Below, one piece after another: positions 1 to 59,380 of a stretch of DNA of 64,000 nucleotides. Position 1 is the stretch's first letter; the number at the start of each line of letters is the position of its first letter. Where the stretch lies: contig JAENRP010000007.1 of assembly GCA_024741835.1 (NCBI GenBank), forward strand, positions 62,001 to 126,000, read 5' to 3'. The position numbers and the translations under genes are program-made. Below the pieces are notes generated by a model. That model ran no database searches, was not told the origin of the DNA, and saw nothing but the letters and a program-made list of their open reading frames with translations. This stretch comes from Diplocarpon mali (Eukaryota > Ascomycota > Leotiomycetes > Helotiales > Drepanopezizaceae).

Positions 1-3000
1 TTACCTATTAGCCTTTGAAATAAGATCATTAAGCATTTTAGGATTAATAAGTAAGACCTTATAACCTTTGCTTTATTTGAGGAATTCTTAGCCTTTGCTT
101 TGAAATCAGATCTTAGTAAGAGAACTATTAATGCTATAGAGTAGGAAAAAGCCCTTACTCCTTCTTATATTAAAGACCTTAAGAGCCTGGTCTAAGAATA
201 CTCGAAAGCTTTAGAAGTTATAAAGGAGGTAAAGAAGAACCTAGTAGTTATACCTTTTACTTATAGGCCTAACTTAAGAGTAAGATCTAACCTTAGAATT
301 AAGGAACTTAAGACCTAATTTGCAAAACTCTGAATCTAAAGCTTAGAAACTAGAATTAATAATCTCTTATAAGAAAAATAGTATATTCTTTAATTTGGTA
401 ATAGATAAAACTCGGCTACTATAAGCCAACCTAGTAGTTCTTATTACTAGACTCCTGCTTTTTATCATTCGGAATAACCAGCTAATATAAGAATGCAATA
501 GCTGGTTAAAGAAGGAGGAATTGATCCTAATTAGCACTTTGCTAATATTAATGTTATAAGGTATTAAGGAAACGGTAATAGAAGATAGCTAATCTGCAAC
601 TTTTGCAATAATAAAGAACCTAACTGCGCTTTATATAAGTACTATAACAATTGTCCTCTTTTCCTTTATTTTATTAATATTAGGGTTATGCATATTAATA
701 AGTATAGGATACTTTGTATTAAAGATCTTAGGCCAGACGCTATTTTTATTAAAAAATATTAGAATCGTTTATAGCTATAGACTATTTGAATAATAATATA
801 TAATATAAAGTGGGATAAGGATTTGGCCGAATAGAAGCGTATTATTGAAATCAACTCTAAGGTCCTAACTTATATATATATAGGTTTAGCTAGCAATCTA
901 CCTAAGGGAGTGCTTACTAATTAAACTTTAAACTAGACTGCTATTAAAGTTAGAGGTATCTTTATTTTAAGGTAGGTTAATAATAATATATCTACTAATA
1001 TTAATGCTACTTCTATATTTAAAAACCCTTAGAATACTTAGTATCCTTTTAGATCTACTACTCCTTTAATATTAATAAAACTAGCTAAAGTCTAGAAATT
1101 AATATGTATAACTTAAGAATCTTAATATAAAGTCCAAACGCTAAAAGATACTTAATAATCTAGAACTATAGTAAATAAGGATAAAGCTAATATAGTAGAC
1201 GAATTAATCAAAGATATAATAGATAAAGATAGCTTTAAGCTTAAAGATTAAGAAGTCGAAGTTATTATATAGACCCTTGACCTTAAGTGAAAGAGATAGA
1301 TATTAAAATAGGAGAAATTCGTTAATAAATACGCTAGTTTAACTATAATAGAGAAAGCTATAGAAAATATTATAGCTTAGTAAATTAACCTTATATTTAA
1401 AGACCTATTTGGTTTGATTAGACGCTTTAATAAAGTGCTAGGAAAGCATATCCTAGTTGCTTTTAAAGATTTGAATAATAATAAGGAAATAGAAATTATA
1501 ATATAAAAGAACTTTAAGAAGCACTTAGCCTTAATCAAATGTCTTTAGATTATAGAAGATAAAGGAACTTAAAGGTATTATAATATTATAGTAATAGCTT
1601 TAATATCTTAGAATATTAATTGAAATTATTTAATAGTTATAATAAAAAGCCTTATTATTATTTATTTTATAAAAGAATTAGTTAAAGTAAAGGCTTTGAT
1701 CGATTATAGTTTAAAAGTTAATATAATAATTAGGAAAGTGGCAGAAATAGCTCGATTAATAATTGTTAGCAATCAACTTCTTATTTATTTAACTATTTTT
1801 AAATTAAAATACAATTTTAATAAATAGGTGAAAAACGTAAAGGTTAAAGTTAGAGGAATCGTTAATTATATTGACTTTCTAATAATAGAGAATTCTTTAA
1901 ATAATATTCTTTTAGGAATGCCCTTTATTTTAAAATCTTAGCTAATATTTAACTATCCTAAAGATAGTCTTATAAAAGCTAGTCTTTAAAATATAGATTA
2001 ATCTTTAAAAGGATAAATGGTTATTATAAGAGATATAGTCGAATTTTAAAATAAGGTTTTAGGAAATAATTAGCTAGCATAAGGGCTAAGCTTAATGCTA
2101 GTAAAGGAAGGCACTTAGCGAGGAGTTATAATAAAAGAAAGGTAAGTTTGCTGATTTTAAATAATAGTGATTTGATTTGCAGTCTTAGATTAAAAGTTAA
2201 ATTTAGAATTTTGAAAAATAGTATAATCGGCGTTTTATCAGCTTAATAATTAAGAAAAAAGAAAAATAAGGTAAAGAAGAGAGTTCGTTTTACAAATTTC
2301 AATAATTTGTTAATTATTTTAAAAAATTTAAAAACTATTTATAAGCTAGACCTGCGAGTGAAAAATAATAAAATTACTAATAATATTTCTATATATATAC
2401 TTTAAATTAATAACTTAGAAAATCTTTTATTTATTTTTAAAAAGGAAAATTCGAACCGTTTTATAAGATTTGATAAAAAAGGAAAGAAGTAGAAAAGTAT
2501 AGTATTAGCTAATATTCGAACTATATATAAAAGTAAGGCTAATAAAGTACAATTAGTAGATTAGGGAATCTTTAATAGCTTAAAGCTTAAAGGATTAGAT
2601 GATTAGTTTGAATAAGATAAGAAGCTTTAACCTTTAAAGCTAAGTGGCAAATTCGATAAGTTTATTATAGGCAGATTTTCTAATAAACTTATTAGATATC
2701 GGCTAATAAAAGAACGTTTTAATATATTGAAAATTAAAGAAGACTTAATAGAGTAAGAACGCAAACTACTTTATAAAACTTTAATAAATTAAAAGGACGC
2801 CTTAGCTTTTCATTAGACGGAACTTAGCTAGATTTGAGAAGAGGTCACGCCTTATATTAAGATTAAGATAATACCTTATAAAGCTTAATAAGAAAAAACA
2901 TTTAAGGTCTTTAAAGCTCTTTAAGAAAAGGTAATCGAAATATTAAAGGATAGATTAAAGTAAGGTATTCTTAAGTTTTATAATAGCCTTTATAGGAATA

Positions 3001-5880
3001 AATGATTCTTAATTGCTAAAAAAGAAAAGGGAACTTATAGATTAATAATAGTAATAGTAGAAATAAACTAAGTAACTATTAGAGATGCTAATATTCCTTT
3101 AAATATGGATAAGTTTTTAAATAAATTTGTAGGATTAACTTATAGCTCTTTTATTAACTTCTTCTTTAAATATAACTAATTTATTTTTAATATTAAATCG
3201 AGAGATATAATAGTAATTCAAATCCCTCTTAAGCTACTTTAGATAATAAGATTACCTTAAGAGGCTATAAATTCGATCGCTTAATTTATTTAAGTAATCT
3301 ATAAGATATTAGTAGATTATATACCTAATATTACGCTCCTTTATATAGAAAATATAAGAGTAAAAGGATTAAGATCATTTTATAATTATAAAGAAGTTTT
3401 TCTTAATATATAATGATTTATAATAGAATATATTTAAAACCTAGACTAGGTGCTTATATAATTCGAAAGGGTAGGAGTAATAGTTAGTCTGAAGTTATAA
3501 TACTATCTCCTATTAATAGAAATTGTTAGTTTTATTATTGATTCTAATAGCCGAAGTCCTTAAAGGGCTAAAGTACTTAAAATCGATAAATGGAAGAGGT
3601 ATAATAATATAGCAAAAGCTCGCGCATTTATTGGCATTATAGTATATTATCGTATATAGATTAAGGATTTTACTAAAAAGGCAGTACCTATTTACTCCTT
3701 ATTTTAGGAAGGGGCTAAGTTTTAATAAGAGGAACTTTAAATAGAGGCTATAAAATAACTAAAGCAAGCGTTACTTAAAGCGCTATATTTAATTAAAATA
3801 GACTATAGAGCTAATGCTAGGCTAATTATACTAATAGTTAATGTAAGCTTAATCAAATAGGGTGCTATCCTTTAATAAGCTGATAGCTAATAGAAAAGAC
3901 ATTTAGCTTACTTTGAAAGTAGTCTTTAGAATCTAGTAAAGACTAAGTATAATGCTATTAAATAGGAATGTAAAAGAGCCTTAAAAGTAATAAAAAAGAT
4001 GAGAAGCGACTTTTATAGCACTTACTTTATCTTTAAAACTAATGCTAAAGTGCTAGTAGAACAATTGAATAGAGCTATAAGCGACCTACTTAAAGTCTTA
4101 TTAATAAAATGGATTGCTTAAATAAGACTAATAGACTTTAAAGTCAAATATATTCTAAGAATGAAAAACACTACTGTAGATAGCCTTTTAAAAAGAACTT
4201 ACCTTTACCCTTTTAATTTAATTAAAGAAGATGAAATAAATATTAATAAGTAGGTAGAGAATGAAGTTGGTTATCTATTAATATATCGCCTTAAAGGGAT
4301 TCGACTCTTAGTCTTAGCCTGCAAGTTAAATAAGAGAATTTTATTACTTAACTACTTAGGTGACTTTAAAGAAATCGCGAAATTTTTAGTTACGCTTAAA
4401 TAACTAAAGATAGTTGCTCTTAAGGATTTTTAAAAATTTAAGGCTAAAGCTCTAATTTATCTAATGTAAGGAAGACGATTATTTAAAAGAAGCAATAACT
4501 TATTCCTTATACGACTTTATTTAAATAATGAAAAACTAAGAGCTAAGGCTATCTAAGATATTTATAAGGAAACTGGCTATTAAGGAGCTAAATCTACTTA
4601 CTATTAACTCTTAAGGAAATTCTTTTAAAAGGGTTCTTTTAAGGATTACAAAACCTTTATAAAAAGTTGCGTCTCTTATTAGAAATAAAAACCTAGTTAT
4701 AAAGAGAATCCCTTATTCCTAACCTAGCTATTAGGCCTTTTTTATAAAGTCAGTTTTAATATTATATAAGTATTAATAATTGAAAATAGGATTATATATT
4801 TTATTTTAATAAAGGAAGACCTATTAAGATAGCTTAAAGGACGACCTTTAAGATCTGCTAACTTTGAATCTATTATGAAATTCCTTTAAGAAGACGTAGT
4901 CTATTGCTATAGACTTTTTAATAGATTAACTATTAATAGAGGCCTTGAAAATAAAGGAGTGGTTAAAGCTTTTTTATAAAAATATAGTATTAAACAGGTT
5001 CAAATCTTAGTATATAATTCGAAAGCTAATAGAATAATAAAGCGAAAATATTGCGATATTCTTAATAGACTATCTAAAGTTACTTATAGAGGATTTAAGA
5101 ATTAGATAAAACACTTTTATAGAATACTCTTTACTTATTAAATGATAATTTATAAACCGATTAGAGTTATACTATTTTTCCTTATTTATAGTAAAAAGGT
5201 ATAGCTCCCTTTTGAATCCTAATATCCTATTTAGAGATTGTTCGATTATAGTCAAATTTAGAACTATTCCGATTTGCTTATAATAAGATGTTAATAACTT
5301 AAGCTTTAAAATATAGATATAAAGGAAATTATTCTACGAAAGAAACAATATTAGGAAAAAGCAAAGGAAGTATAGGCTGCTTCTAAAGTACTTAAAACGC
5401 ACCTTATTTAAAAAGATGATCTTATCTTAGTTTATAATATTGCAAAAAGTATTAATATATTAATAGATATTAAACTTAACTATCGATAGCTTAGCTTATT
5501 TAAGGTTAAATCTAAGTAAAAAGAAAAGGGATACTATTCTCTTTAGGAACTTAATAGAATTGATATTAAAGGAACCTTTGCAGCCAACTGATTAAAGCGC
5601 TTTTATTAATATAACTAGACCTTATTCCCTTTAAAAGACGAATTAGAAATTGATATAACCTCCGAATCTTTTATAAGAATTAATAGTAATATAAGCAACT
5701 TTAAACCCTTAGATAAAGATTAAGATTTTTCCAACTTGACCTATAAGCCGGTCTTATAAGTAAAGAATATTAAAATACCTAACTAATTATAACCCTAAGT
5801 TATTATTCCTAAAATATCCGAAGAACGTAAGTGGGAATACTAAGCGATTTCCTAGCCTATTAATTGTCCTACCTTCTTAT
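1..5880 (+). pseudogene. Gypsy gag-pol remnant (GypG-L)
   Basis: Degraded gag-pol in the order gag, protease, RT, RNase H, integrase, as in Ty3/Gypsy elements. A gag-like cysteine motif (CNFCNNKEPNC, with a further Cys) lies at about 595-654. The protease active-site region reads LIDYSLKVNII near 1694-1720, where an intact enzyme would have LIDSGS. RT spans about 2830-3420 and includes TIRDANIPLN and a catalytic box now reading YIEN at 3342-3353; GypG-R keeps YIDD. The integrase core, about 4790-5330, has a recognisable stretch around YNSKANRIIKRKYCDIL. Stops are nearly all TAA/TAG at expected Gln or Trp codons. The 3' limit is approximate because no clean stop can be picked out. Confidence 0.82.
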
Positions 5881-6159
5881 AATCTTTATTTTTTTTTATA
5901 TTTTTAGCAAGGTCGCCTCCTTTATTATTTAAGATATAGATCTTTTAGGATCACTTTAAATTCTTATCTACTCTGATTTATATTATATTCTTAATATTAG
6001 CCTTTAATTATAATATTCCTATTACTTTCCTTAAATAATAAATAAAAAGTCTAATTTCCTTAATATATATAAAGTAAACCTATTGCAGCTTATATGCCCT
6101 TTTAATTCTTATATCCTATTAAACTCTCTTATTTATACTCCCTATCTTTTATAAGTAAT

Positions 6160-9100
6160 ATGCCTCTAAAGAACTCATAAATGGTTTTATCTACTGCGAT
6201 AAGGGATAAATAATTACTAATTATAAACTTCTCTTAAGATAGCAGAACTATTACATCGTTAAAGAGCTTTAAATCGACCTACGCAGCCTTAGGAGATATA
6301 AAGTAATAAAAACTCCTTTTAACTTATACAAATGCTATTAATAACCTTTTAACCTAAGTAGCCCTTGGAATTCTCCAATTTAACAACTTCTTAACTAAAG
6401 AATTAAAACTAAAGGGAATCTTTAAAAAGGAATTCTTAGCTAACGCAGATTAATATATAACCTTAGCTAATACTTTTAAAATAGATTAAAATAAAAGAGA
6501 AGAATCTATTCGACGATTAGATAATTTAGCTATTAATAAGAAAGGACTCCTATTTCGTTCGCACTTTTTAACAAATATTGATTCTAATAATAAAAGACAA
6601 GTATTATTAAAAATTCTTAAGGAAAACACTCCTACTGCTAAAGCTATTCAGATTCTCAATTTCTTTATTATTTAAAAAGGAGTAGTAAAATTCTAAGGCA
6701 ATCGAATTCGCAGTCGCAGATTTATAAGCCTATTTAATATAGTAATTATAGCAGCTGATAGGGCTATAAAAAGATCAAATTAAGCTATAGATATTACCCT
6801 ACTTAATAGCACTATTATTAATATACTAAGGCTTTGCGCTTCTACTTATAGTTTGCTTATTTTAAAAGAGAACTGGACTTTTATACTAGGGTTTAAATAA
6901 GATTTCTTTAATAATAAAGAAGGGAATTAGTTATTTATAATTAAGCTTGCTTTAAAATTCGCTTTTTAGCCTAAAGATATAATAAGTGCTAAACTATATG
7001 ATTTAACTCGCAGTCTTAGACTAGGAGTTAGAAGTAAGAATTTTAAAACTAGACCTAATTTGCCTTTTATTAAAATGATTTTAAAAACCGCTATTAAATA
7101 AATTGCCTAAACGCTTAGCGTAGCCTCTTTAGAATTTTCAGAATCTTTAAAGGACTCTCCTTTAGCTAAACGACCTATTTTAACTCAACCTTTAAGAAGG
7201 ATAGATCGTTTAATAGCTACCTTAGCTAATTTGCAATTTGAAATGAAAGGATTATGCGCTTAATTAGACTCCTTTCTTAATAACTTAAAAGAGCTAGTTC
7301 TTAACTTCTTTATATCTATATATAACTGTTTTAAAAACGATAATATAAGGGAAGACCCTATTCCTACTGCTTTAAAGACAATTAAGAGAGCTGTTAAATA
7401 GATTCAATAGCTTATCTTAGACGAGTTTGCCCTTATAGATATTATTTAATTCTTTAATAATTATAAAAGTTAAGAACCTAGTCTTTCGGATGCTAAGTAA
7501 GACTATTTTATCTTATAAGAAAGAGAATATAAAAAGGAATTTATTAATTAAGATATTTATAATTATAGCAATATGCCTCAATCGGTCATTCTTAACTTTA
7601 AGCTTAAAGAATAATATAATATTTAAGTGTCCTTTATAATAAAAACTCGCTTTCGATAGTATCTTCCTAGTATAGGAATCGAAGAGAGAAGACTTTACGA
7701 CCTTTATATTTACTCTCTTTCGGTTTACTATAGTCTTAATTATAAAGGATTTAATATTAATAAAACTATTAAATACCTTAAACTTCTCTATATAGCAGAA
7801 GATATTAATCTTTTTCTAATCTACTTTAATAATTAATTCTTTATCTCTTTAAGGATACGCAAATCCAACCTATTAATAATAGAAGTATCTTTAGGTGTTA
7901 TAAAATTCAAGGCTAATCCTAAAGCCTTAAAAGCGTTAGAGCTGATTGAATAGAATAATTCCTTCTTATTAATATTATTAAATAATAAATAGTAAGAGGA
8001 AATAAAGGAAGAAGGGTCAATTGTAATGCCTGAACCCTTCGGATGCTGCTTCCTAACCGACAATTTTACTATTGATAATAGTGCTTTTATAAGTATATTC
8101 CTTTTTATTATAAGATAAAAAGTAAAGATATATCTTTATTACTTCTACCTTATAGATAGCGCGACGTTTATACTTTTTTATTTTTTTTATAATATAATAT
8201 TTAATCTTATTCAATAAGTCCTTTAAATATACTATAGACTCTACCTTTTAGCTATAATAGTAAGAAGTAAAGGAACCTATTAGCTTATAGCCTACCTTAA
8301 ACCTCTTTAATTAATTGGCCTTAGTCTTTATAATTAAGTCGTTTTAATAAAGAGAGATATAAGTACTACTAATAAAGAAATTCCGATTTTTACTTACGGT
8401 CCTGGCCTATAAGTCAATTTTATTAGAAAACAAGTCTTAGATTATCAAATCTTACTAATTAGATAAGGGCTAGCTTTTAAAAGCCTTAATAAGTAGGTCG
8501 GCTCTTAGTCGAATGTAAAACTCACTCTATTTATAAAGAAGATAAGTCGATAGACTTCTTAAGCACTTAATTCAAAATCTCAACTAGCTTAAATAATTAT
8601 AAAATTAAAGCGAAAGAAGATCTTACGACCTATTACTAATAATAGCAATCTAATTATAGTAATAATAAAATAGGGATACCTTCTTAAAATGCTTTTGGAC
8701 AATTCTTATAGGACTAGTGGTTTTATAGCCTTTTGCAATAACTATATAGCTATCTGCGATAAGAATACCTTAGAAAATAAGACTCGAATCTTCGATTTTA
8801 TCTTTTTAGTCTTTACTTTAAAGCAACCTCTAATACTTTAATAGATTAACGCAAGTAGAACTATTATACCTTTTAAAGCAGCTTTTCATCTTAAGAATTA
8901 TAGTAGCCTCTTTAAAGCTATTATTAGTTGATACTCTTAAATAGATCTATCGATTATAATCGAAGTATAGGAGTTGTTTCTTCTTAATAAAGACGAATTG
9001 AAAATCTATTTTATAAAATATAATCAGAAGCTCTTTAACGCCCTTATTAAGGCCTAAATAAATATTATAAATACTAAGTCGCTTCTTTATAGACTTAAGT

Positions 9101-9477
9101 CTTAAGGATAATGCAATAAAGTAAATACTATCTAAGAGCCTAATATACTAATTGATAAAGGCATTATTATAAGAAAATTCGGAAAAGAGACAAACTAAAA
9201 CGCTAGTATAGTATTAGACCCTAATTTAGAAACTAATCTCCTATTTTTACCCTTAAGCTTAAAAACGCTAAGACTGACTCGCGAGCCTGGCCCGCGAGTG
9301 AGGTTGGACTCGGCTGGCTTAAGCCTATAAGATAGTTCGAATGAATCTCGGCTACTAAATCTAAGGGTACTAATAGAAGATTCTTTAAGAAAGGCCCTTA
9401 AAGCTGAGAAATCGCTAAGAAGTAAGAACTAGCGCAAGAGAAAAAGGCTCCGAAGTGACGATAAAACCGACAATTGA
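6160..9477 (+). pseudogene. ORF3 of GypG-L, unknown ~1,105-residue protein, RIP-inactivated
   Basis: I do not recognise this product. An ATG at 6160 opens MPLKNS; the frame runs 1,106 codons with internal TAA/TAG only, and ends at TGA 9475-9477. The copy at 32310-35627 has exactly the same length, so the frame was once open. It lies downstream of pol and upstream of ORF4 and the LTR. ORF3 and ORF4 are paralogous: here AI*ILNFFII*KGVVKF*GN-like text matches AI*VLNYFTI*KGIKKL*GN in ORF4, and DEFALIDII*FFNNY matches DEFSIDNII*FFINY. I see no signal peptide, membrane span or enzyme motif, so an envelope protein is unlikely. It contains palindromes at 7006, 8392 and 9277, read in frame as T-x-x-P/L-x-x-x-V. 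A TATA-like TATATAAAG at 6066-6074 lies about 90 bp upstream. Confidence 0.6.
9277..9299. repeat. 23-bp palindrome in GypG-L (one of thirteen)
   Basis: Left half ACTCGCGAGCC, centre T, right half GGCCCGCGAGT. Other GypG-L copies start at 259, 2175, 2337, 4304, 5739, 7006, 8392, 24083, 24269, 25499, 26321 and 26746; all are 23 bp. Half-sites come in three flavours, ACTCGCRGGCC, ACTCCTRGGCC and ACYTATAGGCC, freely combined. Most lie in reading frames in the same phase (T-x-R-P-G-P-R-V type); 4304 is in another phase and 26746 is in the 3' UTR. Confidence 0.92.
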
Positions 9478-9654
9478 GTCAAGCAATCTGGAGAATCATA
9501 ATCTACCCCCCCCTTGAAAACCATTTAGAGAGATTGCGAATTATAGTTGAATTTTTTGGGATTATCTACTTTCTATATACCTGCACCTCTTTATTCTCAA
9601 CCTATTGTTCCATTCTATACATATTCTTTATTTACTTTACTTTTTATATGATTC
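9478..9654 (+). other. ORF3-ORF4 intergenic stretch, first part
   Basis: Non-coding linker between ORF3 and ORF4, cut by the Copia-A insertion; it resumes at 22820. It holds a C-run near 9507 and a T-rich tail. The uninterrupted equivalent lies on the minus strand at about 32125-32309. A 68-codon frame here (9474-9680) crosses into the Copia-A LTR and is not a gene. Confidence 0.55.
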
Positions 9655-9659
9655 ATTTT

Positions 9660-9892
9660 TATAGCAAGGAGGTTCTTTGATAGTAAACTTGATAGTAAAC
9701 TAGAAGAGGGCACAAAGAAGTATGAGGTGCAAATGACGATGTTAGGTGTCTTGATTCATAAGAGCTCTTTAATTATAAGCTATTTAATAAGGGCTGCCAC
9801 TAAGTTATATAGTAAGTCATATGATATATCATATATATAATATATTATATAATAGATTATATGATAAATATATGATAGGTATACTTGTAATA
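9660..9892 (-). repeat. Copia-A 3' LTR (233 bp)
   Basis: Direct repeat of 22582-22814; a third family member in the other orientation is 59558-59790. All three are 233 bp. On the element strand it runs TATTGCAAG-like to CTTGCTATA; the intact-looking end in the 59.8-kb copy is TACA. The polypurine tract AAAGGGG, complement of 9895-9901, lies two bases upstream of the LTR on the element strand, the same spacing as at 59549-59555. Confidence 0.93.
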
Positions 9893-10957
9893 TACCCCTT
9901 TGAGGAGACCTTTAAAGGTACTTACTAGTAATATATATGATATTATAACTTTTGTTATAATCTATAGTTTCATATGAAAAATCAACCTGCAGATATAGGA
10001 AATAGAGTAGAGTTTGCTAGCGCGTTCTACTCTAGAGTAGGAAATCCACCCCTTAGTAAGTCAAAATCAACTCGCAGGCCTGGCCTAGGAGTAGAAAAAA
10101 AAATCACCCCTTAATGGAAGTGCAAAAAAAAAAAATCACCTTATAATAGAGGTGCGAAAAAAAATCACCCCTTAATTGAGGTGCAGAACCTTTATATTTA
10201 ACAATTTGATAAAGGCGGCGTAGTTAGAGCTATTTAAGCTCTTAGTAAGGCCATCGGTGGCGTTATCTTTAGTATTTGTATACTAGAGGTTCAAATGGCC
10301 TTTCCGAAGTTCTTGCCGAATATAATAGAACTTAATATCGATATGCTTCGTTTTTCAATAATATTCGGGGTTTTCGGTAAGATAAAGGGCTTCTTAGTTA
10401 TTATAGATCATCTCGACTTTAGTAGTATTATCGCTGGCGTAGCCCATTTCCTTAAGTACCTAGCGTATCTAAGAGGCCTCTTATACGAATTTGCATATAG
10501 CGATATATTCTACTTTTATAAATAAGAGAGCGATAATAGTCTATCGCTTAGAAAAGGCGGTAATTATGCTATTATTAAAGAAGAAGACGGCCCTAGAATA
10601 AGAGGCTCTACTTCCTTTATTACCTACTTAATTAGAATTATAGTAGCTATGCAATTTCTAAAGCTCTAGGTCAGTTGTTTTACTTCTAAAGGTAGTATAA
10701 TAGAATCGCGTTCTTTATAAGTATTATAAAACTCGTTTTAAAGCTACTATATATTATAGCAAAGGGTTAGTAAGGAATTTGCTAAGAATGGAGCAATGGT
10801 ATAGTATATCCTAATGCGTATAGTGCGCAAGGTACTATAGAGAACTATAGATCTCTTAGTATAGCTTCACTTCCTATAGAGTGGCTTGGCCTTCAAATTT
10901 GACTATATGAACTTTATAGCTATTAGTAAAAGGCATTAGTACGCTTTTGCAATTAGT
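9893..10957 (-). pseudogene. Copia-A RNase H end of pol and 3' UTR
   Basis: This is the C-terminal part of the Copia-A polyprotein; the rest continues at 18561 beyond Copia-B. The RNase H end is recognised through the homologous plus-strand copy at 58197-59265, which reads IKHINIKFYYIRQEL and TKDNAADRLTKSLN, signatures of Copia RNase H C-termini. Here the matching bases lie at about 10230-10540 with RIP changes. The 3' UTR at 9893-10230 holds A-runs, short repeats of an AAATCACC-type unit at about 10085-10185 and the 23-bp palindrome at 10070. A 76-codon plus-strand frame (10295-10525) is antisense to the RNase H and not a gene. Confidence 0.78.
10070..10092. repeat. 23-bp palindrome in Copia-A (one of five)
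   Basis: Left half ACTCGCAGGCC, one central T, right half GGCCTAGGAGT. Other copies in Copia-A are at 19579-19601, 19624-19646, 21037-21059 and 21115-21137. The 10070 copy lies in the 3' UTR after pol. Its counterpart in the second Copia-A copy is at 59358-59380. The same palindrome is in both giant Gypsy copies. Confidence 0.9.
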
Positions 10958-11154
10958 TGTCGTGCAGAATGGGCGGAGTCTCCACTTATTCTGGAGACCC
11001 TCCACGTGACTCTGCTAAGTCATAGACTCTCCCTTTTCTTTCCGAAGTCTTCTTACTATATATATACTAGATAATAATACAATTAATCATCTTTATTTAT
11101 ATTAGCAAGCCTCTTAAGCGACCTAATGAAGGCCCTCTAGCCGACCGCACTATA
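10958..11154 (+). repeat. Copia-B 5' LTR (197 bp)
   Basis: Starts TGTCGTGCAG and ends CACTATA; its partner 18359-18555 starts TATTGTGCAG and ends CACCATA. The differences I see are transitions, as expected from RIP. Loss of the canonical TG and CA ends is explained by the same G>A and C>T changes. Confidence 0.95.
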
Positions 11155-11165
11155 GTTATAAGCCC
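11155..11165 (+). promoter_or_regulatory. Copia-B primer-binding site, half-tRNA type
   Basis: GTTATAAGCCC follows the LTR directly. Its complement GGGCTTATAAC differs by one transition from GGGCTCATAAC, the usual anticodon-loop region (CAT) of eukaryotic initiator tRNA-Met. Drosophila copia primes from a cleaved initiator tRNA-Met in this way. The tRNA match is from general knowledge, not from this genome. Confidence 0.55.
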
Positions 11166-11169
11166 TATA

Positions 11170-14100
11170 AGCACTTTAATATGCTTTCTCTTTATATGCA
11201 ATTGGCTAAAGGGCCTTTTAAGCTCCTAACCGACTTTTCGAGTATTTATAATAACTTAAAGGACCTTCATTTTCAATTAATAAATCTCCATTTTCCGATC
11301 GAACTTTATTTGCAAACTCTATTTATATACCTAACCTTTTCACTAGACTCTATTTAATATATCTAACTCTTTAAGTATCTCTAAGCCTCGCTTTAATACT
11401 TCTACCTCTTAGGTAAAGTAGTTTAATAAATATATATTCTTCGCTAAGCTCTATAATATCACTATTTTTACCAATCTAAGACTCCTATTTAAGTCAATTA
11501 TAGAGACCGAGCCTTAAGCTCCCTTTATATAAGAGCTTAAGGAACTAGAAACGGCTAACCTTTATATAGTATACGCGAGGTTATATAAAGAGTATATAGC
11601 GACTTTATTTGAATAGATTTACGCCCGCTTTCCCTTAGGAGATCCGTCAAAGGCTCCTCCTCTATAGGCTTTTTATAAGAATATTAAGGATAAATATAAA
11701 ATCCTAATAAAGGAGTACCACCTGCGTAAGGAAACTTAAAAGACCTAATGCAAATACTACGAACTACTCTTAGAATAGGTCTTTAAAACCGTTAATAGAA
11801 TGCTTTTAGCTTTTACGATAGCTTAAGTATAAATCCAAGTTGAAAAGCTCTCCTCCTTAATACCTTATAGAGATACTCCTATAAGTGGAACTACTATTAA
11901 TAACCTATATATTAATTTGGTGAACTAGCAACTCTTACTCTAAGGCCTAGTATCTATTTTAAAGCGTGATATTGCGCCTTCTAATAAGGCTATTTAGTCT
12001 TAGATAAGGCTTTAATACCGCGATATACTATACTAAGGCAAGACTAAGAGAACTAATATTTAGCAGTAGATCTAGGAGTAGTAGGAGATATACTGCCTAG
12101 TAGAATAATATAATCTCCTTAAAATCAAAGGGAGATTAGGAGTTACTGATTTTTTAGACTTAGTTATAGTAAAGATTAATCTGAGTTAGGCGACTTACTT
12201 AAAGGAGGAAATTATTACTAATAAGCAGATAGGAACCCTATATAAGCATAACCTAATATAGCTAAGCTACGCCTTAGCGGGCATTAAATCTAATAGAGCA
12301 ATTGATAATAAAGGGCTAGCAGTTTTTACTACTCGAGAGTCTCTCTTAGATGCTAAAACCCCTTCGCAGGCTCTAGCGAGCAGCTCTTAAAATCGCTCTA
12401 TAAGCTCTAGAAGGGAGATTAGGCCTAAGTGCCCTTATAGAGGCTTTAAAAATTACTATTAAAAGCCCTAGGACTATCGGAAACTATTATATACTATAGA
12501 TAGGCGTAAGGAAAATATAAAGGTTCTCCTTTCGCAAGAGGAGGTCTTACGAATATAAAAGGCGTTAAACGTAGGAGACTAGTTTAAGGGTCTCCGAGTA
12601 TAGCTTAAGGAGAATGATATTACAGTAATAGCAATTGACAAATTCAAGGGAAAGGCTTTAGCCTTTAGGAAGGATAGTTTAAGTAATAAAAGGGAGAACT
12701 TACTAGTCTTTATAGTAATAGATCCCTTTGCCTTTAATGCTTTTAAAGAATTGTTTAATATCTACTACCTCTTTAAGCTAAAATGCCACCCGCTCTCCTT
12801 AAGTACGCTCTTTGATAATTGCGCAGCTACTTACATTATTAATTTAAAGGATTTACTTATCGTAGGCACCTTTAAGCCTTCTAGCGACTTGTAGTAATAT
12901 ATTAAAGTAGGTACCTTAAGACTCCTAATCATTAAGAGAGGTAATAGATATATAGTAGACTCTTTTCTATAGTATAATAGCTCTCCTATAGGAATAATGC
13001 TTTGCAACATTACTATTATAAAGGAGTTTACTACTAATATCATCTTAAAGAGGCTCCTTGCGGATAAGGGTTTTTAGTACTCTAGGGTAGACCTTACTTT
13101 GCGCTTTAGGAGTATTAGAAACTTTATAAAGCAAGCTTAGTTAAAGCGTTATTATAATCTTATTTTCTTTAAATATAAGCCTATTAACTATTTAAATCTC
13201 TTAAATATACTTTAATATAACTTCTTTGCCTTAATAGCGTTCCTTATAGCTAAGACGATACTTTATAATAGGTTCTAATTTAACTATATACCTATTAGGG
13301 TACAGGATGATAACGCGTATACTTAGCACCTTCGCGCTAGCTACCTAAGCGCAGAGGCTCTTTAAGTGCTAATCAAGTGCGCCAAGGGAGTAAAGATCAA
13401 GGGAATACAAAGGCTAGAGTACCCTATATACGTAGTAGCGTCTGCTAAGTAAGTTATTTCTTATACTACCTTTGAGAACTAATCTCTAAAGCCCTTCTTC
13501 AGGATCTCCTAGGATCTCTTTAACTTTTTAAACAACTTATATAATAGTTGCTTATAGGTTCTTTTAATTAAGGACAAGTATAGTAATATACTTTAGACGT
13601 TCCTATTAAGATCGAAGGGTAGAGACGTAGTTATAGAGGTCCTTTAAGCCTTTAAAGTATAAGTGAAACGCTAATATAGGCTTTTAATTTGCAAAATCAG
13701 GTAAGATAATAATACTTTAGTAATCTTCTTAAGGGAAGACTCTCTTATAAAATACTAAAGATAGGTAAAAGAGGAGAGAATCGATTTAGAGCTTACTCCT
13801 ACTTATATATACTAACCTAATAGAGGCGTAGAGCAAATAGGAAGGGAGTTGATTAAACGCTCTATTAAAATAAGGATCTACGCTAGGCTTCTAGCAAGCC
13901 TTTAGCCAAAGGTTATAAAAGCTACTATATACCTTTATAATATCTCCTTACTTATTAAGAAGAAGATGATCTTATTAAGCGAGGCTCTTTATAATTGGTT
14001 TAAGTAGTATTTTCGATTCTATAAGCTACTGCTTATTAAGTAGATAATAGTAAGCTTAAAGCCTAACTAAAGTTGCGTTTATACATATAGCGCTTATATA

Positions 14101-18358: not shown

Positions 18359-18555
18359 TATTGTGCAGAATGGGCGGAGTCTCCACTTATTCTAAAGACC
18401 CTCTACGTGACTCTGCTAAGTCATAGACTCTCCCTTTTCTTTCCAAAGTCTCCTTACCATATATACACTAGATAATAATACAATTAATCATCTTTATCCA
18501 TATCAGCGAGCCTCCTAAGCGACCTAATGAAGGCCCTCCAGCCGACCGCACCATA
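18359..18555 (+). repeat. Copia-B 3' LTR (197 bp)
   Basis: Direct repeat of 10958-11154, followed at once by the TTAGT TSD. It is preceded by AGGGGG and two bases, the same arrangement as the Copia-C 3' LTR. Confidence 0.95.
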
Positions 18556-18560
18556 TTAGT

Positions 18561-22569: not shown

Positions 22570-22581
22570 GGGCTTATAACC
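22570..22581 (-). promoter_or_regulatory. Copia-A primer-binding site, half-tRNA type
   Basis: On the element strand GGTTATAAGCCC follows the 5' LTR directly. It repeats the Copia-B site and matches the complement of the initiator tRNA-Met anticodon loop with one G>A transition. Confidence 0.55.
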
Positions 22582-38957: not shown

Positions 38958-38962
38958 CAAGT

Positions 38963-39134
38963 TGTTGCGCCATGAGGAGCCTCAGGCACTGAGGCATCTG
39001 AGGACTGGCTTATGTAATGTACCCCTGAAGTGGCCACGGAGCACTTCTATAAAGGGAGCTCAGATATACAGTTAGAGTAGAATTTTACAAGCTTTTGCCA
39101 CCATTGAGAATCCACCTTAAAATACAGCACAACA
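38963..39134 (+). repeat. Copia-C 5' LTR (172 bp)
   Basis: Starts TGTTGCGCC and ends CACAACA. By eye it differs from the 3' LTR at about a dozen sites, all transitions. Confidence 0.96.
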
Positions 39135-39146
39135 GTTATCAGCACC
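39135..39146 (+). promoter_or_regulatory. Copia-C primer-binding site candidate
   Basis: GTTATCAGCACC follows the LTR directly and shares its GTTAT start and AGC with the Copia-A and Copia-B sites, but departs from the tRNA-Met anticodon-loop complement at two or more positions. Likely the same priming mode; weaker match. Confidence 0.4.
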
Positions 39147-39289
39147 ATTCGCGACTCTTAGGAGCAAACGATTAAAAATCTACTATGTTTAAAGACTTCT
39201 TAAAGAGGTTTTACTACTATTTTTCATCTATTCTCCCTCGCCTATACGCGTTATACGACCTGACTCGACGTTCCAACGCTCTCAGCTAA

Positions 39290-44672: not shown

Positions 44673-44783
44673 AATGCTCCATAATCCTTTCACATCTCCT
44701 TTATAATAGCGAGTGGGAAGGAAGCGTAAGACAGGGTTCAATTTTCGTATACTAATACATAGGGAGGCTTCAAACCAACTCCC

Positions 44784-45708
44784 TTAGATAATCAGAACCT
44801 CTAACAGCTCCGCGAACAATATAAGGGCGCGTCCCCGCCGAGAAGCAACCGACTCCTCCGGTGGCGCAGCCCTAGGAGCCGCCTGGGGAGCAACGCCGGG
44901 AGCAACGCCGGGAGCAATAACAAGAGCAGCCGCAGGAGCCTCAAAAGCCTCTGCGAAGCGGGCAGCGAGGCCAAGAGGTACTATAATCAGCGGCAGCAGG
45001 AGCTCCTAAGCTATTGGTTCTAGGAAGCTATTAGCTACGGTATAAGAAAGCTTATAATAACTTACCCTCTAACGATACTACCTCCTCTATCTCTCTCCAG
45101 CGCGCCTTTCGAAGCTCCTCTCTTACCTTCCTCTTAGTAGCAGCAAGGCCCTAAACTACTTATTAATGGCAAACCACCTAGAGGGAGCTTAAGAATATAC
45201 CGCGGTATCACTATCATTCTCTTCTAATAAGAATACATAGTCTTCCTACGCCTTTAAGGCGCCGACAGGAAGCTCTTAGCACGCGTGGCCTCCCTTTGCA
45301 TAACGAAAGCAGCGTACTCCCACTATACTATTAAAGCATACGCCAGCCGACTTCCTAGCTAGGAAGCTCCAAACGCACCCCTTATATAGTATATTCCTTA
45401 TTAGCCCCTACTCCAGCTTGCGATAGAAGGAGGGAGCTGCGGAAGGGACCGCCGGTATTCTAAGAACCACGGCCTAAGGGGTGGCAGGGAGGGGAGGAGG
45501 CGCGCTCCCTCTTAGAGGTATCACTATATCAAACGTCTTAGGCGCGTTATCATCCTCCTGCTATCTGCCGCGCTAAAAAGCTCCAAGCTGTGTTCGAGTA
45601 CAACAACTTCGCTATAAGTCTTTAGCAAGAGTAAGGGAGCACAATCAGGAAGCTTATAGTAGTAGCCCCAGTAGGGCGCTCCTCAGAGTTATTATTACTA
45701 TTCTCCAT
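44784..45708 (-). pseudogene. Antisense Ala/Pro-rich reading frame in Copia-C 3' region, with Cys motif
   Basis: An ATG at 45708 opens MENSNNNSEERPTGATTISF. After a one-base frame shift near 45620 the frame continues to TAA at 44784-44786, broken only by TAA/TAG. Visible parts: DIVIPLRGSAPPPLP near 45520, a Cys-rich segment RCFRYAKGGHAC near 45290-45325, and an Ala/Pro-rich C-terminus (IAPGVAPGVAP near 44890-44925). If the Tyr is a RIP-changed Cys, the pattern is C-x2-C-x6-C, half of a fungal Zn2Cys6 cluster; that is an inference. Convergent with gag-pol and located between pol and the 3' LTR. The equivalent place in Copia-B also has an antisense frame. Confidence 0.45.
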
Positions 45709-45994
45709 TTTAAAGTGATTATTTAAAGAAGTATAAGGAAGGAAAGCTTTATAAGGGAAAAACGCGTACTTTTATAGGCGCGCTGCCTTTGTTAACTTTC
45801 CTTTATCACCTGATTTAGCTTCCATTCTATAGAGGAAGCACCTAGAACACGCTCTCTCTTTCATTTATTACAGCTTTGTTAAGCAATTTTCATTATTCTA
45901 AAAGCTAGGGAGCATAATAAGGGAGTCTTATATACTAGATCTAGCGCTAGTTATAGCTAAGCCTAGCTAGGAGCTGCTTCTCACCTAGGGGGTG

Positions 45995-46166
45995 TATTGC
46001 GCCATAAGGAGCCTCAGGCACTAAGGCATCTGAGGACTGGCTTATATAATGTACCCTTAAAGTGGCCACGGAGCACTTCTATAAAGGGAGCTCAGATATA
46101 CAATTAGAGTAGAATTTTACAAGCTTCTGCTACCACTGAGAATCCACCTCAAAATACAGCACGACA
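45995..46166 (+). repeat. Copia-C 3' LTR (172 bp)
   Basis: Direct repeat of 38963-39134; ends CACGACA and is followed by the CAAGT TSD. The first bases read TATTGCGCC (TG>TA by RIP). Confidence 0.96.
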
Positions 46167-46171
46167 CAAGT

Positions 46172-49100
46172 TCTATTTAATCAAAAGCTAAGGCGTCCTT
46201 TCGATTTATTAAGGTTTTATAAAGTAGTTCGCGTTCTTATTCTATTAAGTCATCTCTAATTTTTAGTATATTAAAATATTCTTTTATTAGCTAATATCTA
46301 ATAGGTTTATTAGAAAATCTGCCTATAATAAACTTATCGAATTTGCCACCTAGCTTCAAAGGTTAAGGCTTCTTGTCTTATTTAAACCAATCGTCCAGTC
46401 CTTTAGGCTTTAAGCCGTTAGAGATTCCCTAATCCACCGGTCGTACTTTATTAGCCTTACTTTTATATATAGTTCAAATATTAGCTAGTACTATACTTCT
46501 TTACTTCTTTCCTTTTTTATCAAATCTTATAAAATAGTCCGAATTTTCCTTTTTAAAAATAAATAAAAGATTTTCTAAGTTGTCAATTTGAAGTATATAA
46601 ATAGAAATGTTATTAGTAATTTTATTGTTTTTCACTTGTAGGTCCGGCCTATAAGTGGTTTTTAGGTTTTTTAAAATAATTAATAAATTATCGAAATTTA
46701 TAAAACGAACTCTCTTTTCTACCTTATTTTTCTTTTTTCTTAATTATTAAGCCGATAAAACGCCGATTGTACTATTTTTCAAAATTCCAGATTTGACTCC
46801 TAGTCTAAGACCGCGAGTTAAATCACTATTATTTAAAATCGGCAAACTCACCTTTCTTTTACTATAACTCCTTACTAAGTGCCTTCCTTTACTAGTATTA
46901 AGCCTAGCCCTTATACTAGCTAATCGTTTCCTAAAACCTTATTCTAAAATTCGGCTATATCTCTTATAATAACTATTTATCCTTCTAAGGATCGATCTAT
47001 ATTCTAAAGGCTAGCTTTTATAAGCCTATCTTTAAAATAGTTAAATATTAGCTAAGATTCTAAAATAAAAGGCATTCTTAAAAGAATATCATTTAAGGAA
47101 TTCTCTATTATTAGAAAGTCAATATAATTAATAATTCCTCTAACTCTAACCTTTACATTTTTCACTTATTTATTAAAATTGTATTTCGATCTAAAGACAG
47201 TCGAATAAATAAGGAGTCGATTGCTAACAATTATTAATTAAGCTATTTCTACTACTTTTCTAATTATTATATTAACTTTTAAACTATAATTGATTAGAGC
47301 CTTTGCTTTAATTGATTCTTCTATAAAATAAATAATAATAAGGCTTTTTATCGCAATTGCTAAACAATTTCAATTGATATTCTAAGATATTAAAGCTATT
47401 ACTATAATATTATAGTACCTTTAGGTTCCTTTGTCTTTTGCAATCTAAAGACATTTGATTAAAGCTAAGTGCTTCTTAAAGTTCTTTTGTATTACAATTT
47501 CCATTTCCTTATTATTATTCAAATCTTTAAAAGCAATTGGGATATGCTTTCTTAGCACTTTATTAAAGCGTTTAATCAAACTAAATAGGTCTTTAAATAT
47601 AAGGTTAATTTGCTAAGCTATGATATTCTCTATAGCTTTCTTTATTATAATTGAACTAGCGTATTTGTTAACGAATTTCTCCTATTTTAATATCTGTCTC
47701 TTTCGCTTAAGGTCAAGGGTCTGCGCAATAACTTCAACTTCTTAATCTTTAAGCTTAAAGCTATCTTCATCTATTATATCTCTAATCAATTCGTCTACTA
47801 TATCGGCTTTATCTTTATCTACTATAGTTCTAAACTATTAAGTGTCTTTTAGCGTTTGGACTTTATATTAAGATTCCTAAGTTGCATATGCTGATTTCTG
47901 GACTTTGGCTAGTTTTATTAGTATTAATAGAGTAGAAGATCTAGAAGGACGCTAAGAATTCTAAGGGTTCTTAAATATAGAAGTAGCATTAATATCAGCT
48001 GAAATATTATTATTAACCTATCTTAAGATAGAAATGCCTCTAACTTCTATAGCTATTTAATCAAAAGCTAGGTCCTTAAGAACTCCCTTAAGTAGATTGC
48101 TAATTAGACCTATATATATATAAGTTGGAATTTTAGCATTTATATTTATAATACGCTATCATTTGACCAAATTCTTATCCTATTTTATACTATATATTAT
48201 TGTTCGAATAGTCTATAACCATAAGCGATTCTAGTGCTTTTTAATAGGGATAGCTTCTGGCCTAGGATCCCTAATGCAAAGCATCCTATACTTATTAATA
48301 TATATAACCCTAGTATTAATAAAATAAAGGAAAAGAGGGCAATTATTGCAATACTTATATAAAGTGCAGTTAGGTTCTTTATTATTGCAAAAGTTGCAAG
48401 TTAATCGTCTTCTATTGCTATTCCCTTAGTACCCTATAGTATTAATATTAGCAGAGTGCTAGTTAGGATTAATTTCTCCTTCTTTAATCAACTATTAAGT
48501 TCTTATATTAGCAGGTTATTCCGAATGATAAGAAGTAGGAGTCTAGTAATAGGAACTACTATATTAGCTTATAGTAGCCGAGTTTTACTTATTACTAAAT
48601 TAAGGAATATGCTATTTTTCTTATAAGAGATTATTAATCTTAGTTTCTAAGCTCTAGATTCGGAGTTCTGCAAATTAGGTCTTAAGTTCCTTAATTCTAA
48701 GGTTGGATTTCACTCCTAAGTCAGGCTTATAAGTGAAAGGTATAACTACTAGGTTCTTCTTTACCTCTTCTATAACTTCTAGAGCCTTTGAGTATTCTTA
48801 GACCAAGCTCTTAAGGTCTTTAGTATAAGAGGGAGTAAGGGCTTTTTCCTACTTTATAGTATTAATAGTTCTCTTACTAAGATCTGATTTCAAAGCAAAG
48901 GCTATGAATTCCTTAAATAAGGCGAAGGTTATAAGGTCTTACTTATTAATCTTAAAATGCTTAATAATCTTATTTCAAAGTCCAGTAAGTAATCTAAGTA
49001 AGAAAAGGCGGCCTCTTTCAACTTTATTAAGTATTTTCTAGCTAATTAAGGTATTTGACATATAAGTAAAAGTCCGATAGTAGTTCTTAAGTTCCTTAGG

Positions 49101-50129
49101 AGTATAAGTGACTAGAACAAATTCCTTTAAGAAAGCTAGGGTATTATAAATCTACTATCTATTAAATTCGCGAAATTCAGATTTAAAGGCCTTAATAAGG
49201 AGTTCTTATAAACTATAAGTTTTCCATTTAAGGAGGGACTTGATAATATCCTTACTTATATAATTATAGTAGTAAAGAAGTCGAGAAATCATATCCTCTT
49301 ATATAATATTAAAATTGTAATAAGTTTCCTTATATTGCTTAAGGAAATTAGTAATATTAGCGCCTATAAAGTAAGGAGCGCCAGGGGAATTAAGAAGGGG
49401 AAAGTGATTAGTAATAGCCTTAAATGCGGCTATTATCGTTTTATACTAACCGTCTAGGTTGATAGAATCTATAGAAGGCAAAGGGGAAGCTTTAATATTG
49501 CGAGATTAATTGCTAAGAGGAGTACTTCGAAATTCAAAAGGGCTTAAAGAATATTCAAAATCTAAGTCAATCTTAGAGTAATTAGGACAAGTTTAAAAAG
49601 ATTTAAATAAAGGGTTAATGAAAAGTTTAAAATTATTATTATTTTTAGTATTTTCTAATATCGATATTGAAAAAGTAGGTAATAGTCTTAAGTTGTTTAA
49701 GGATGTCTTTTTATCCTCTTACTTATAGGCTAAGCTTAGGAGTAGAATTCCGGATTCTGCTAAAAGTTTAATCCGAGTTTGCTAAAAGATTCTAAGTAAG
49801 TACTAAATAGCCAATAGGAGTATTGCAATTAATTGCAATAAGATAAGGTTTACCTAATCAAAGACCAATTTCTAAGATAAGGTTTATATTTAAGATTTTT
49901 CTTAGCCTTTAGGCCAATTCCTATTAGTCCTTAGAATAAAAGGGTCTCTAGAGACAATTCCAAGGCAATTTTTAAAGTTCTATTAAGCTAAAGCAGCTGA
50001 ATTATCGGATTCGGATTTCTAAAGATTCTAAGGAAGCACTTCCGATTGGAGTTTACGCTTAGTATTACTCAAGTACTTAAAACTACCGCTATTTAAGATT
50101 GCTATTATAAGGTTTGCTAAACTTTTCAT
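46172..50129 (-). pseudogene. GypG-R gag, protease and first part of RT
   Basis: A gag start is proposed at ATG 50129 (MKSLANLIIAILNSG), about 290 bp inside the 5' LTR. Gag reads SPGAPYFIGANITNFLKQY near 49330-49390 and has the cysteine motif CNFCNNKEPNC near 48370-48430. The protease region is near 47250-47320. The RT N-terminal part runs to the Copia-C insertion. Palindromes at 46634, 46796, 48712 and 49721 lie in this frame. Comparison with GypG-L base 1 (matching about 48990 here) shows what the left copy lacks. Confidence 0.8.
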
Positions 50130-50397
50130 ACTAGGAAGCTAAAAATTCCGAAAATCTCGAAGTTAAGAAAGAAAATAAGGGTTTTTAAAGCAAAGCCGAA
50201 AAGGGAAAATCTAAGGTTATTAATAGTTGCTAAACGAAAATCGATAGTTCTAAGTAATTAGGCAATTAAGGATAAGGGTTTTAAAGTCGATCAAAATGCT
50301 ATAAGTGTTTCAAAGACGTATTCTTCGAAAGGCCGGTCTCTTATCTGCGAACTAAGAGATTAATAAGGTCGTATAAGGACGGAAATCTTAAGAAATC

Positions 50398-50418
50398 AGT
50401 CCCTGCGTAGGTCACTAA
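50398..50418 (-). promoter_or_regulatory. GypG-R primer-binding site candidate
   Basis: On the element strand the 5' LTR is followed by TTAGTGACCTACGCAGGG. A TTGG start before RIP would fit a tRNA 3'-CCA primer, but I cannot name the tRNA. Confidence 0.35.
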
Positions 50419-50664
50419 TATAAAACTAAAGGGGAGATAATATAAGAATAGGCCTAAGGGAAGACCTAAAAACAAAAGGAGGAAGCACTATAAGCGGGCT
50501 CTCTTAAATAAGATATTAGGAATAAGTCCTAAGTATAGGGTATATTCAGTACTATAGCGATACGCGCTATCTCTATATATAGAAGATGGCCCTTTTATCC
50601 TCCTACTATCCTACGTCGATCATATGATATATATCATAAGACCTATCTATCTTAGGTCTCTATA
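50419..50664 (-). repeat. GypG-R 5' LTR (246 bp)
   Basis: Direct repeat of 27728-27973 with many transitions. It keeps, on the plus strand, the basic frame KNRPKGRPKN seen in the other two LTR copies. Confidence 0.92.
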
Positions 50665-51731
50665 TTATTATTATTAGTAAGTGCTCTAATTATTAGCCGA
50701 CCCCCTTTAATATATATATCGCTAACTTAGATAGTACTTAAATGCAATCCTAAGGACCTGCCTAAGGCCTTTTAGGTGCTATACGTATATTATATGCGTA
50801 TAATATTAAGAAAGGAGGCTAGTAAGAATAATACTAGCTATATATGCGTATTTAATACTCTTACTTTTAAGAAGTATAATTACTACATTGCGCAATAGGT
50901 AAAGTATATCTTAGTAAGTGCCCTTTAATATCCTCTTACTTTAATAACCTTTAATAGATATCCGTTTTAAATACTTATTTAAGCTTAAGATAAGTATATT
51001 ATCCTTTAAGATACTTAGGTTAGCGGCGATATTAAAGCGATCTAAGAAGCGGCCTAAATCCTATTTAAAGAGACTTAGATATAAATCTTTATAGTCCTAA
51101 AGACTTAAGATACCCTTTAGTTAGCTTAGCTAAACGAAGCTTATACTTTCTACTATAGTATCGACCTTGCGAACACTTAGCAAGCTATAAGTGCCTTTAA
51201 ATCTATTTAATATCGATAACTAACTATTTATAAGATCTATTGCGCGCTATCTAAGGCGGTAATACTACCTTTAGGCATCTTAAAACTTAAGGCACTAAGG
51301 TACTTAGCTCCCTTTAATATATAAAGGGGCTATTTAATTCAATTAAAGGCCGTTCTTAGGCTCCTTTTAATAATATCTACTATTAAAAAGGCAAGGGTAG
51401 ATAAGTCCCTTCTAAAGGCTTTCTAAAGGGTAGGGATTTGGATCTTAATAATTTGGATAAACCGAATCTAAAGGAGATCGCGGCCGCTCTTACTTAAGTG
51501 CAAGCTTAAGAGGAGCAGGCCAACTTGGTCGCTATTTCGGATAGTAAGGCCTTTAGGACTTAAGGGGCTAGGGATCTATGCCTTAGAAATCCTAGTGCTT
51601 AGGATAGGTGCTTATTAAAGGTAGAATCGTTAGTAAATTGTTATCTTTAGTAATATAATAATCGCTGCTTTACTATAACCTCCTTCTTAAGTACTACTTA
51701 AGTGATAAAAAAATGCAAGTACGCGCAGATA
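50665..51731 (+). pseudogene. Unassigned degraded coding-like block
   Basis: Outside GypG-R and not clearly Copia-D. On the plus strand one frame from about 50845 to 51400 has stops that are mostly TAA/TAG (e.g. ALSKAVILPLGILKLKALRY near 51245-51305), followed in another frame by DLNNLDKPNLKEIAAAL near 51440-51490. It may be part of a gag-like region of another retroelement; I recognise no motif. No LTR, TSD or end could be fixed. Confidence 0.3.
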
Positions 51732-59267: not shown

Positions 59268-59357
59268 GGTTCTATACTTTAATTAAAGGGTGATTTTTTT
59301 TTATACCTCTATTATAAGGTGATTTTTTTTTGCACTTCTATTAAAGGGTGATTTTTT

Positions 59358-59380
59358 ACTCCCGGGCCAGGCCCGCGAGT
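59358..59380. repeat. 23-bp palindrome in the second Copia-A copy
   Basis: Left half ACTCCCGGGCC, centre A, right half GGCCCGCGAGT. It lies in the 3' UTR and is one of the least RIP-changed copies. Homologous to 10070-10092. Confidence 0.92.

Follow-up and report, generated by a model that had tools for sequence, protein, structure and literature searches.

Gypsy-type and Copia-type long terminal repeat (LTR) retrotransposons in the genome of the fungus Diplocarpon mali carry a 23-bp near-palindrome, which occurs 33 times in a 64,000-nucleotide stretch of contig JAENRP010000007.1 (positions 62,001 to 126,000 of the contig in assembly GCA_024741835.1; hereafter the window). The sites stand at fixed places, are conserved beyond their flanks, hold fixed third codon positions around a free centre base, mix their half-sites and turn over in tandem. 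Judging from these sequence patterns, we give roughly even credence to the reading that the motif is an old recognition site acting at the level of DNA, most likely for a dimeric protein, which LTR retrotransposons have kept at fixed places; the strict one-base spacing, the free centre and the independent half-sites would suit such a protein.

The palindrome in the window and across the genome

An initial annotation of this DNA had listed 33 starts, and the 23-bp near-palindrome is present at every one of them (Table 1). Scored with a matrix built from these 33 sites, which also served to find further ones, they range from 14.9 to 37.7 and the next best position in the window reaches 6.4; 20 Markov simulations of the window gave a mean of 0.2 hits above 12 and a maximum above 15 in 2 of the 20 runs. 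The sites are confirmed, by their sequence and by this separation from the rest of the window, as real and far above chance. Their distribution also stood as annotated: 13 site pairs are common to both giant Gypsy copies, five sites lie in Copia-A with one more at 59358 in a second Copia-A fragment, and there are none in 10,093-19,578, 37,481-46,633 or 49,744-59,357, the intervals that include the elements which that annotation calls Copia-B, -C and -D.

The three half-site types first described for the motif come down to two binary choices, at position 5 and at position 9, with the rest probably decay by repeat-induced point mutation (RIP), and we infer that before such decay the motif consisted of two inverted 11-bp half-sites, ACTCSCGGKCC, around one free base. 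A protein search found one relative of ORF3, which together with ORF4 makes up two extra genes of the giant Gypsy (window approximately 6080-9460 and 22825-26770); this relative, P0027, is an open frame of 1105 residues from Diplocarpon coronariae, 71% identical to ORF3 with 98% covered. The alignment shows 324 differences; taking P0027 as the starting state and the element copy as the end state, C-to-T or G-to-A changes account for 305 of them and the reverse changes for 13, an excess as would be expected of RIP. At three sites P0027 reads TRGPGPGV, TRGPGPRV and TREPGPRV, and P0028, a Copia-A relative from the same species (67% identical), reads TREPGPGV twice and TPGPGPRV three times; the peptide expression was matched by these two of 59 fetched proteins and by none of the other 57. 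Because intact D. coronariae proteins carry TRGPGPRV-like peptides, the TATA forms of the half-site probably reflect RIP decay, which acts by transition. The peptides fit half-sites ACTCSCGGKCC, with a GAG variant at codon 3, so that the CCTAGG and TATA forms would alike be transition products. Beyond the 23 bp, constraint extends to the second neighbour on each side, giving Y-N-23-N-R (Y, pyrimidine; R, purine).

Across the genome the motif is far above chance, so the chance frequency that the initial annotation had named as a refuting outcome did not occur. With at most one mismatch, the pattern ACYYNYRRKCYNRGMYYRNRRGT occurs 11,166 times in the 49.4-Mb assembly against 21 times for a reversed control; a stricter pattern with zero mismatches occurs 2,227 times, and the nearly undecayed form 88 times, each with a control of 0. 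Density was sampled in 20 stretches of 10 kb, partly chosen around listed sites. Of the sites scoring more than 14, all 107 came from the 140 kb with a G+C content (GC) below 45%; the 60 kb with a GC of 45% or more yielded none, three positions there scoring 12-14 (L027 at 1570, L034 at 1048 and 2756), which is easy to reach in GC-rich DNA because the matrix background is AT-rich. L021, an AT-rich stretch, had no sites either. All 20 stretches fetched for less decayed sites (from about 50 listed of the 88) match the same LTR families or relatives of them; the sample is small, and sites outside LTR elements may exist. Four LTR families, equally divided between the Gypsy and Copia types, account together with their relatives for the sampled sites: the giant Gypsy, approximately 16 kb long with integrase and RNaseH domains detected; family E, with Gypsy-type reverse transcriptase (RT), RNaseH and H2C2 domains; Copia-A, whose intact relative carries RVT_2; and Copia-X, in which RVT_2 was detected (the names E and X were coined in this analysis). 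Flank clustering grouped 140 sites into 23 clusters. No host gene carrying a site was seen in the sample, that is, in 60 kb of GC-rich DNA and in the 20 other stretches, all in LTR elements.

Constraint on the DNA and place in the proteins

Constraint was counted at 26 places over 27 positions, namely the 23 bp and two neighbours on each side. At 17 of the 27 positions a single purine or pyrimidine class is held in 26/26 places, with the centre base free (18 Y, 8 R) and the immediate neighbours on both sides likewise free (12 against 14). Fifteen places were counted as coding in phase 0 (the phase was less clear for G7 and E1, of which G7 is supported by P0027); in them third codon positions 3 and 6 are pyrimidine in 15/15 and positions 18 and 21 in 0/15, compared with an average of 0.55 pyrimidine over 20 flanking third positions, none of which is uniform.

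Diverged copies were compared as well. Transversions affect 6 of 138 cells in the six diverged sets, and half of those 6 are at the centre. Among five copies of ORF4, transversions are seen in 3 of 115 columns within sites versus 10.1% of 3,937 columns, and that all five ORF4 sites should be so poor in transversions has a probability of approximately 0.8% by a random-window measure. Site G0 was compared between three Gypsy subfamilies, leaving out L033, in which homology ends soon after the site: subfamilies I and II differ by one transversion in 23, at the centre (flanks 9-11%), I and III by two (flanks 20-21%), and II and III by three (flanks 21-22%). ORF3 and ORF4 are themselves paralogs, 29% identical with an expect value (E) of 1e-81, where the best reversed control reached only E 2.6. 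The site pairs G6/G9, G7/G11 and G8/G12 stand at homologous places in the two, with 3, 2 and 2 purine/pyrimidine differences per 23, respectively; G10 of ORF4 has no partner in ORF3. The left half of the G7 place is degenerate in L010, a diverged copy, where the place scores 16.4. All 55 places that were aligned to copy A1 in four additional copies of the giant Gypsy are filled with 23 ungapped bases; 54 of them exceed score 14, and the remaining one, G5 in the C4 copy, is decayed and scores 9.0. The G0 of window copy 1 falls beyond the window edge.

Reading phase was assigned from the stop codons per phase on both flanks of 22 site groups. Phase 0 is lowest in stops on both flanks in 13 groups (including X2, with many stops), phase 1 is lowest on both flanks at G4 (4304/37458), and the remaining eight groups are mixed or noncoding; G0, G13, A3 and X2 look noncoding. 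These counts do not support the frame tolerance that had been proposed for the sites. In the giant Gypsy, sites lie before RT, in the RNaseH-integrase linker and after integrase, those in pol keeping to linkers outside the RT, RNaseH and integrase cores. Family E has E2 ahead of RT, and its E3 separates the RNaseH and H2C2 domains, a location of the same type as that of G4. Within Copia-A, A1 is just upstream of Pol_BBD and close to a DTG motif resembling that of retroviral proteases, and A2 is between integrase and RT.

Units of site plus spacer, measuring 45, 48, 54 or 61 bp, differ in number between copies (E3, 1, 2 or 3; E2, 2 or 4; A2, 2 or 3; X2, 2 or 3). Array spacings mostly range over 39-54 bp, and a few measure 78 or 90; all those listed for coding arrays are multiples of 3, and the X2 region includes 61, 64 and 66. 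At a fixed place, half-sites have clearly been exchanged in G4, and exchange was seen at G1 and E1 as well; half-site switching is not a general process. Ten-site arrays of Copia-X on the minus strand (L016:12-533 and L025:4289-4804) remain open over 174 and 172 residues, respectively, on the strand that does not encode its RT.

Table 1. Retrotransposons and palindrome sites in the window (window positions)
Feature	Position	Strand	Element and place
Gypsy copy 1, first part	1..9655	+	gag region, pol, ORF3
Gypsy copy 1, second part	22820..27242	+	ORF4, 3' repeat; after nested Copia-A
Gypsy copy 2	27725..50665	-	other element nested at ~39,134-45,997
Copia-A	9660..22814	-	terminal repeats 9660-9892 and 22,582-22,814; other element nested inside
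G1	259..281		Gypsy copy 1, gag region
G2	2175..2197		Gypsy copy 1, upstream of RT, phase 0
G3	2337..2359		Gypsy copy 1, upstream of RT, phase 0
G4	4304..4326		Gypsy copy 1, RNaseH-integrase linker, phase 1
G5	5739..5761		Gypsy copy 1, tail after integrase
G6	7006..7028		ORF3, homologous place to G9
G7	8392..8414		ORF3, homologous place to G11
G8	9277..9299		ORF3, homologous place to G12
A3	10070..10092		Copia-A, 3' region
A2	19579..19601		Copia-A, integrase-RT linker, tandem unit
A2	19624..19646		Copia-A, second unit, 45 bp away
A1	21037..21059		Copia-A, just upstream of Pol_BBD domain
A1	21115..21137		Copia-A, just upstream of Pol_BBD domain
G9	24083..24105		ORF4, Gypsy copy 1
G10	24269..24291		ORF4, Gypsy copy 1
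G11	25499..25521		ORF4, Gypsy copy 1
G12	26321..26343		ORF4, Gypsy copy 1
G13	26746..26768		Gypsy copy 1, 3' end, probably noncoding
G13	28183..28205		Gypsy copy 2
G12	28602..28624		Gypsy copy 2
G11	29424..29446		Gypsy copy 2
G10	30654..30676		Gypsy copy 2
G9	30840..30862		Gypsy copy 2
G8	32488..32510		Gypsy copy 2
G7	33373..33395		Gypsy copy 2
G6	34759..34781		Gypsy copy 2
G5	36023..36045		Gypsy copy 2; sole window site breaking the 15-position purine/pyrimidine mask
G4	37458..37480		Gypsy copy 2
G3	46634..46656		Gypsy copy 2
G2	46796..46818		Gypsy copy 2
G1	48712..48734		Gypsy copy 2
G0	49721..49743		Gypsy copy 2, probably 5' leader
A3	59358..59380		second Copia-A fragment

Some neighbouring features deserve a brief record. 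Tandem repeats of 29 bp directly adjoin the A3 sites in the Copia-A 3' region (window 10095-10185 and 59273-59357), and the interval separating the two A1 sites (21059-21121) is occupied by a tandem repeat of 24 bp that holds a shorter palindrome, ACTCCTAAGGAGT. A run of 28 N follows just after site G13 (26781-26808), with N there in some other copies too. L010 and L057, relatives of the giant Gypsy, are internally deleted with sites kept near both ends, and another Gypsy family, L036 (G000:C74:102501-107000), has no sites; at 49% GC and with long open frames it has therefore seen little RIP. Open frames of at least 150 residues are found in the window only at its right end (62304-63852), perhaps a host gene region.

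Weighing the explanations

Several points tell against a bound DNA site. Having been picked by a matrix derived from the window, the sites owe part of their invariance to ascertainment, the tandem units among the counted places are not independent, and the sampled copies are decayed. As many as 38% of random 23-column windows in ORF4 are as transversion-poor as a site (one or none), and the G0 site is only in the best 12% of alignment windows (59/507), which is modest. One phase is preferred even where others would be open, a preference not predicted by a role purely at the level of DNA. The product of ORF3 or ORF4 is a speculative candidate for the binder. Neither gene matched a Pfam family, ORF3 has no PDB match, and its predicted fold, at a pLDDT (predicted local distance difference test) of 33.5, gives no usable model. 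Finally, short direct repeats near both borders exceed those in shuffles (P 0.001 or less, 24 places), which the bound-site reading does not explain.

These repeats bear on the other of the two readings in the initial annotation, a palindromic micro-element. As considered here it would be selfish and comparable to the Rickettsia palindromic elements, entering the linkers of retrotransposon proteins in frame and then being amplified by retrotransposition. Over the 22 groups the mean match is also above shuffles (P 0.003), with seven groups reaching at least 5 nt versus 2.6 in shuffles (P 0.006), and the repeats could be a trace of insertion, favouring a micro-element as the origin. Yet those seven groups have periods of 30, 31 or 32, most of which would break the frame, as the period of 31 would at G2, G3, G7 and A1, and repeats immediately at the borders were not above shuffles in 15 of 16 tests (the other at P 0.041). 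Matches allowed to lie a few bases off the borders exceed shuffles; they lack a fixed border and often break frame, and may or may not mark target duplications. The micro-element would also fit the confinement of the peptide expression to the two D. coronariae proteins, the position of pol and Copia-A sites in linkers, and the lack of the motif in P0029 (Rhynchosporium graminicola) and P0030, which are 58% and 57% identical to P0028 and at A1 lack, along with the motif, 26 and about 30 residues present in P0028. However, the A1 difference spans a two-site array rather than one clean insert, and at A2 the linkers of these homologs are no shorter (63 and 69 residues versus 61). Moreover, the 55 aligned places within the genome include no empty site, a candidate empty site in a diverged Gypsy having been rejected with the finding that the C80 copy is internally deleted; sites in host genes were not seen in the sample; and the centre base varies freely, whereas an insert that was copied should bring its centre along. 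As an explanation of the motif we think the micro-element unlikely, if still worth serious thought, while its insertion may have been the first origin of the sites, compatible with a later role as bound sites. Between the two readings, the bound DNA site in both families is better supported because of the fixed third positions, the free centre and the persistence of places even in very diverged relatives, and the micro-element is supported in part, as an origin.

The selected feature might instead be a peptide, such as a processing site or other short linear motif of the retrotransposon proteins. A single phase prevails, the intact peptides are regular, and sites occupy domain boundaries, with G4 and E3 in the RNaseH-integrase linker, others before RT in both families, and those of Copia-A upstream of Pol_BBD and between integrase and RT; but such a motif would not ask for fixed third codon positions, for the apparently noncoding G0, G13, A3 and X2, for G4 in another phase, or for arrays of up to ten sites, and we consider it improbable. 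The homologs are relevant here, in that P0029 and P0030 lack the motif, which is thus not a peptide common to these homologs and was either gained in this lineage or lost in others, and the peptide is absent from the giant Gypsy pol homologs P0001 (32% identical) and P0002, whose pol linkers are not alignable. The residues are not shared by homologs in other species, as they would be for the ancestral peptide motif that the initial annotation had weighed against its own proposal. Very improbable, in our opinion, is a hairpin in the element RNA or complementary DNA (cDNA) that acts in packaging, translation or strand transfer. The dyad symmetry is near-perfect, all four families have RT domains or RT-type RNaseH, and 19 of 26 places would allow pair 9/15, a little more than the 16.1 averaged by shuffles (P 0.16); pair 5/19, on the other hand, is possible in only 8 of 26, below the shuffle mean of 12.5, and 18 cannot pair. 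With half-site pairing no better than in shuffles, below them at 5/19 and not significantly different at 9/15, pairing is not what is kept. The faintest prospect of all we assign to a passive minisatellite-like unit, slipped and carried along without function, for which the copy-to-copy variation at E3, E2, A2 and X2 would speak; it sits poorly with sites that are more conserved than their flanks (ORF4, G0), that stand at homologous places in ORF3 and ORF4, and that are present in Gypsy-type and Copia-type elements alike.

If the motif is a bound DNA site, a protein would read its DNA, and the motif would help the element, for example in escape from silencing, in integration or in chromatin targeting. 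New sites would arise mainly by tandem duplication with rare recombination between elements, and the encoded peptide, T-[RP]-[GE]-P-G-P-[RG]-V, would be a tolerated by-product in linkers. Inverted CGG triplets are typical of Zn2Cys6 factors, the motif here being longer. By analogy with VANC, our leading guess at its function would be an anti-silencing or targeting role. A more ambitious form of the proposal, which we regard as distinctly unlikely, is a DNA address system that crosses families, whereby Gypsy-type and Copia-type elements of a single fungal lineage would have filled coding and noncoding DNA alike with one dimer-binding palindrome, constrained at synonymous positions, and one protein (perhaps from the duplicated ORF3/ORF4 of the giant Gypsy) would act on all of them, one family supplying it and others exploiting it. 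Should the bound-site reading be correct, two superfamilies would hold a long protein-binding site within coding sequence at the cost of fixed peptides, and the motif could be used as a probe for finding the binding protein.

Comparison with known systems

No report of such a motif was among the literature matches listed, with subscription papers outside the scope, and neither the D. rosae nor the D. coronariae genome paper has the word palindrom in the available passages of its main text. Palindromes within coding sequence are known from other organisms. Mitochondrial genes of Nematomorpha contain perfect inverted repeats that reach 284 bp, with conserved parts of the protein encoded in the arms (PMC6649704). 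There too inverted repeats lie inside protein genes, but here one short motif recurs at many places. PARCEL repeats are described as amphipathic 25-residue repeats with palindromic coding, arranged in tandem and linked to mobile elements in some taxa (PMC2996958). The two systems share palindromic coding repeats in tandem that are tied to mobile elements; unlike PARCEL, the peptide here has 8 residues and the motif also occurs singly and in probable noncoding DNA.

Rickettsia palindromic elements are longer than 23 bp. They are palindromes read in frame within unstructured protein parts, in assorted cellular genes (section 9 of PMC2996958). Our motif resembles them as a palindrome read in frame in unstructured parts of proteins, and departs from them, as that section presents them, in being found only in retrotransposons in our sample, at fixed places and with fixed third positions.

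VANDALs are DNA transposons. In Arabidopsis, VANC-binding motifs place a short motif at many places in a VANDAL transposon family (PMC5735166, PMC10398659, in the parts available), and the VANC21 motif is 9 bp long and mainly noncoding, the word palindrom being absent from the accessible 2017 text (PMC5735166). As with the VANC motifs so described, the motif reported here is enriched in particular transposon families and rare elsewhere (in our sample rather than the whole genome), and is gained and lost with tandem repeat units. Unlike VANC21, it is a 23-bp palindrome in Gypsy-type and Copia-type LTR elements and is mostly coding, with 13/22 groups in one phase on both flanks and its peptides present in the intact P0027 and P0028. 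If the bound-site reading is right, the motif would be a fungal, RIP-exposed counterpart to the anti-silencing motifs of plants.

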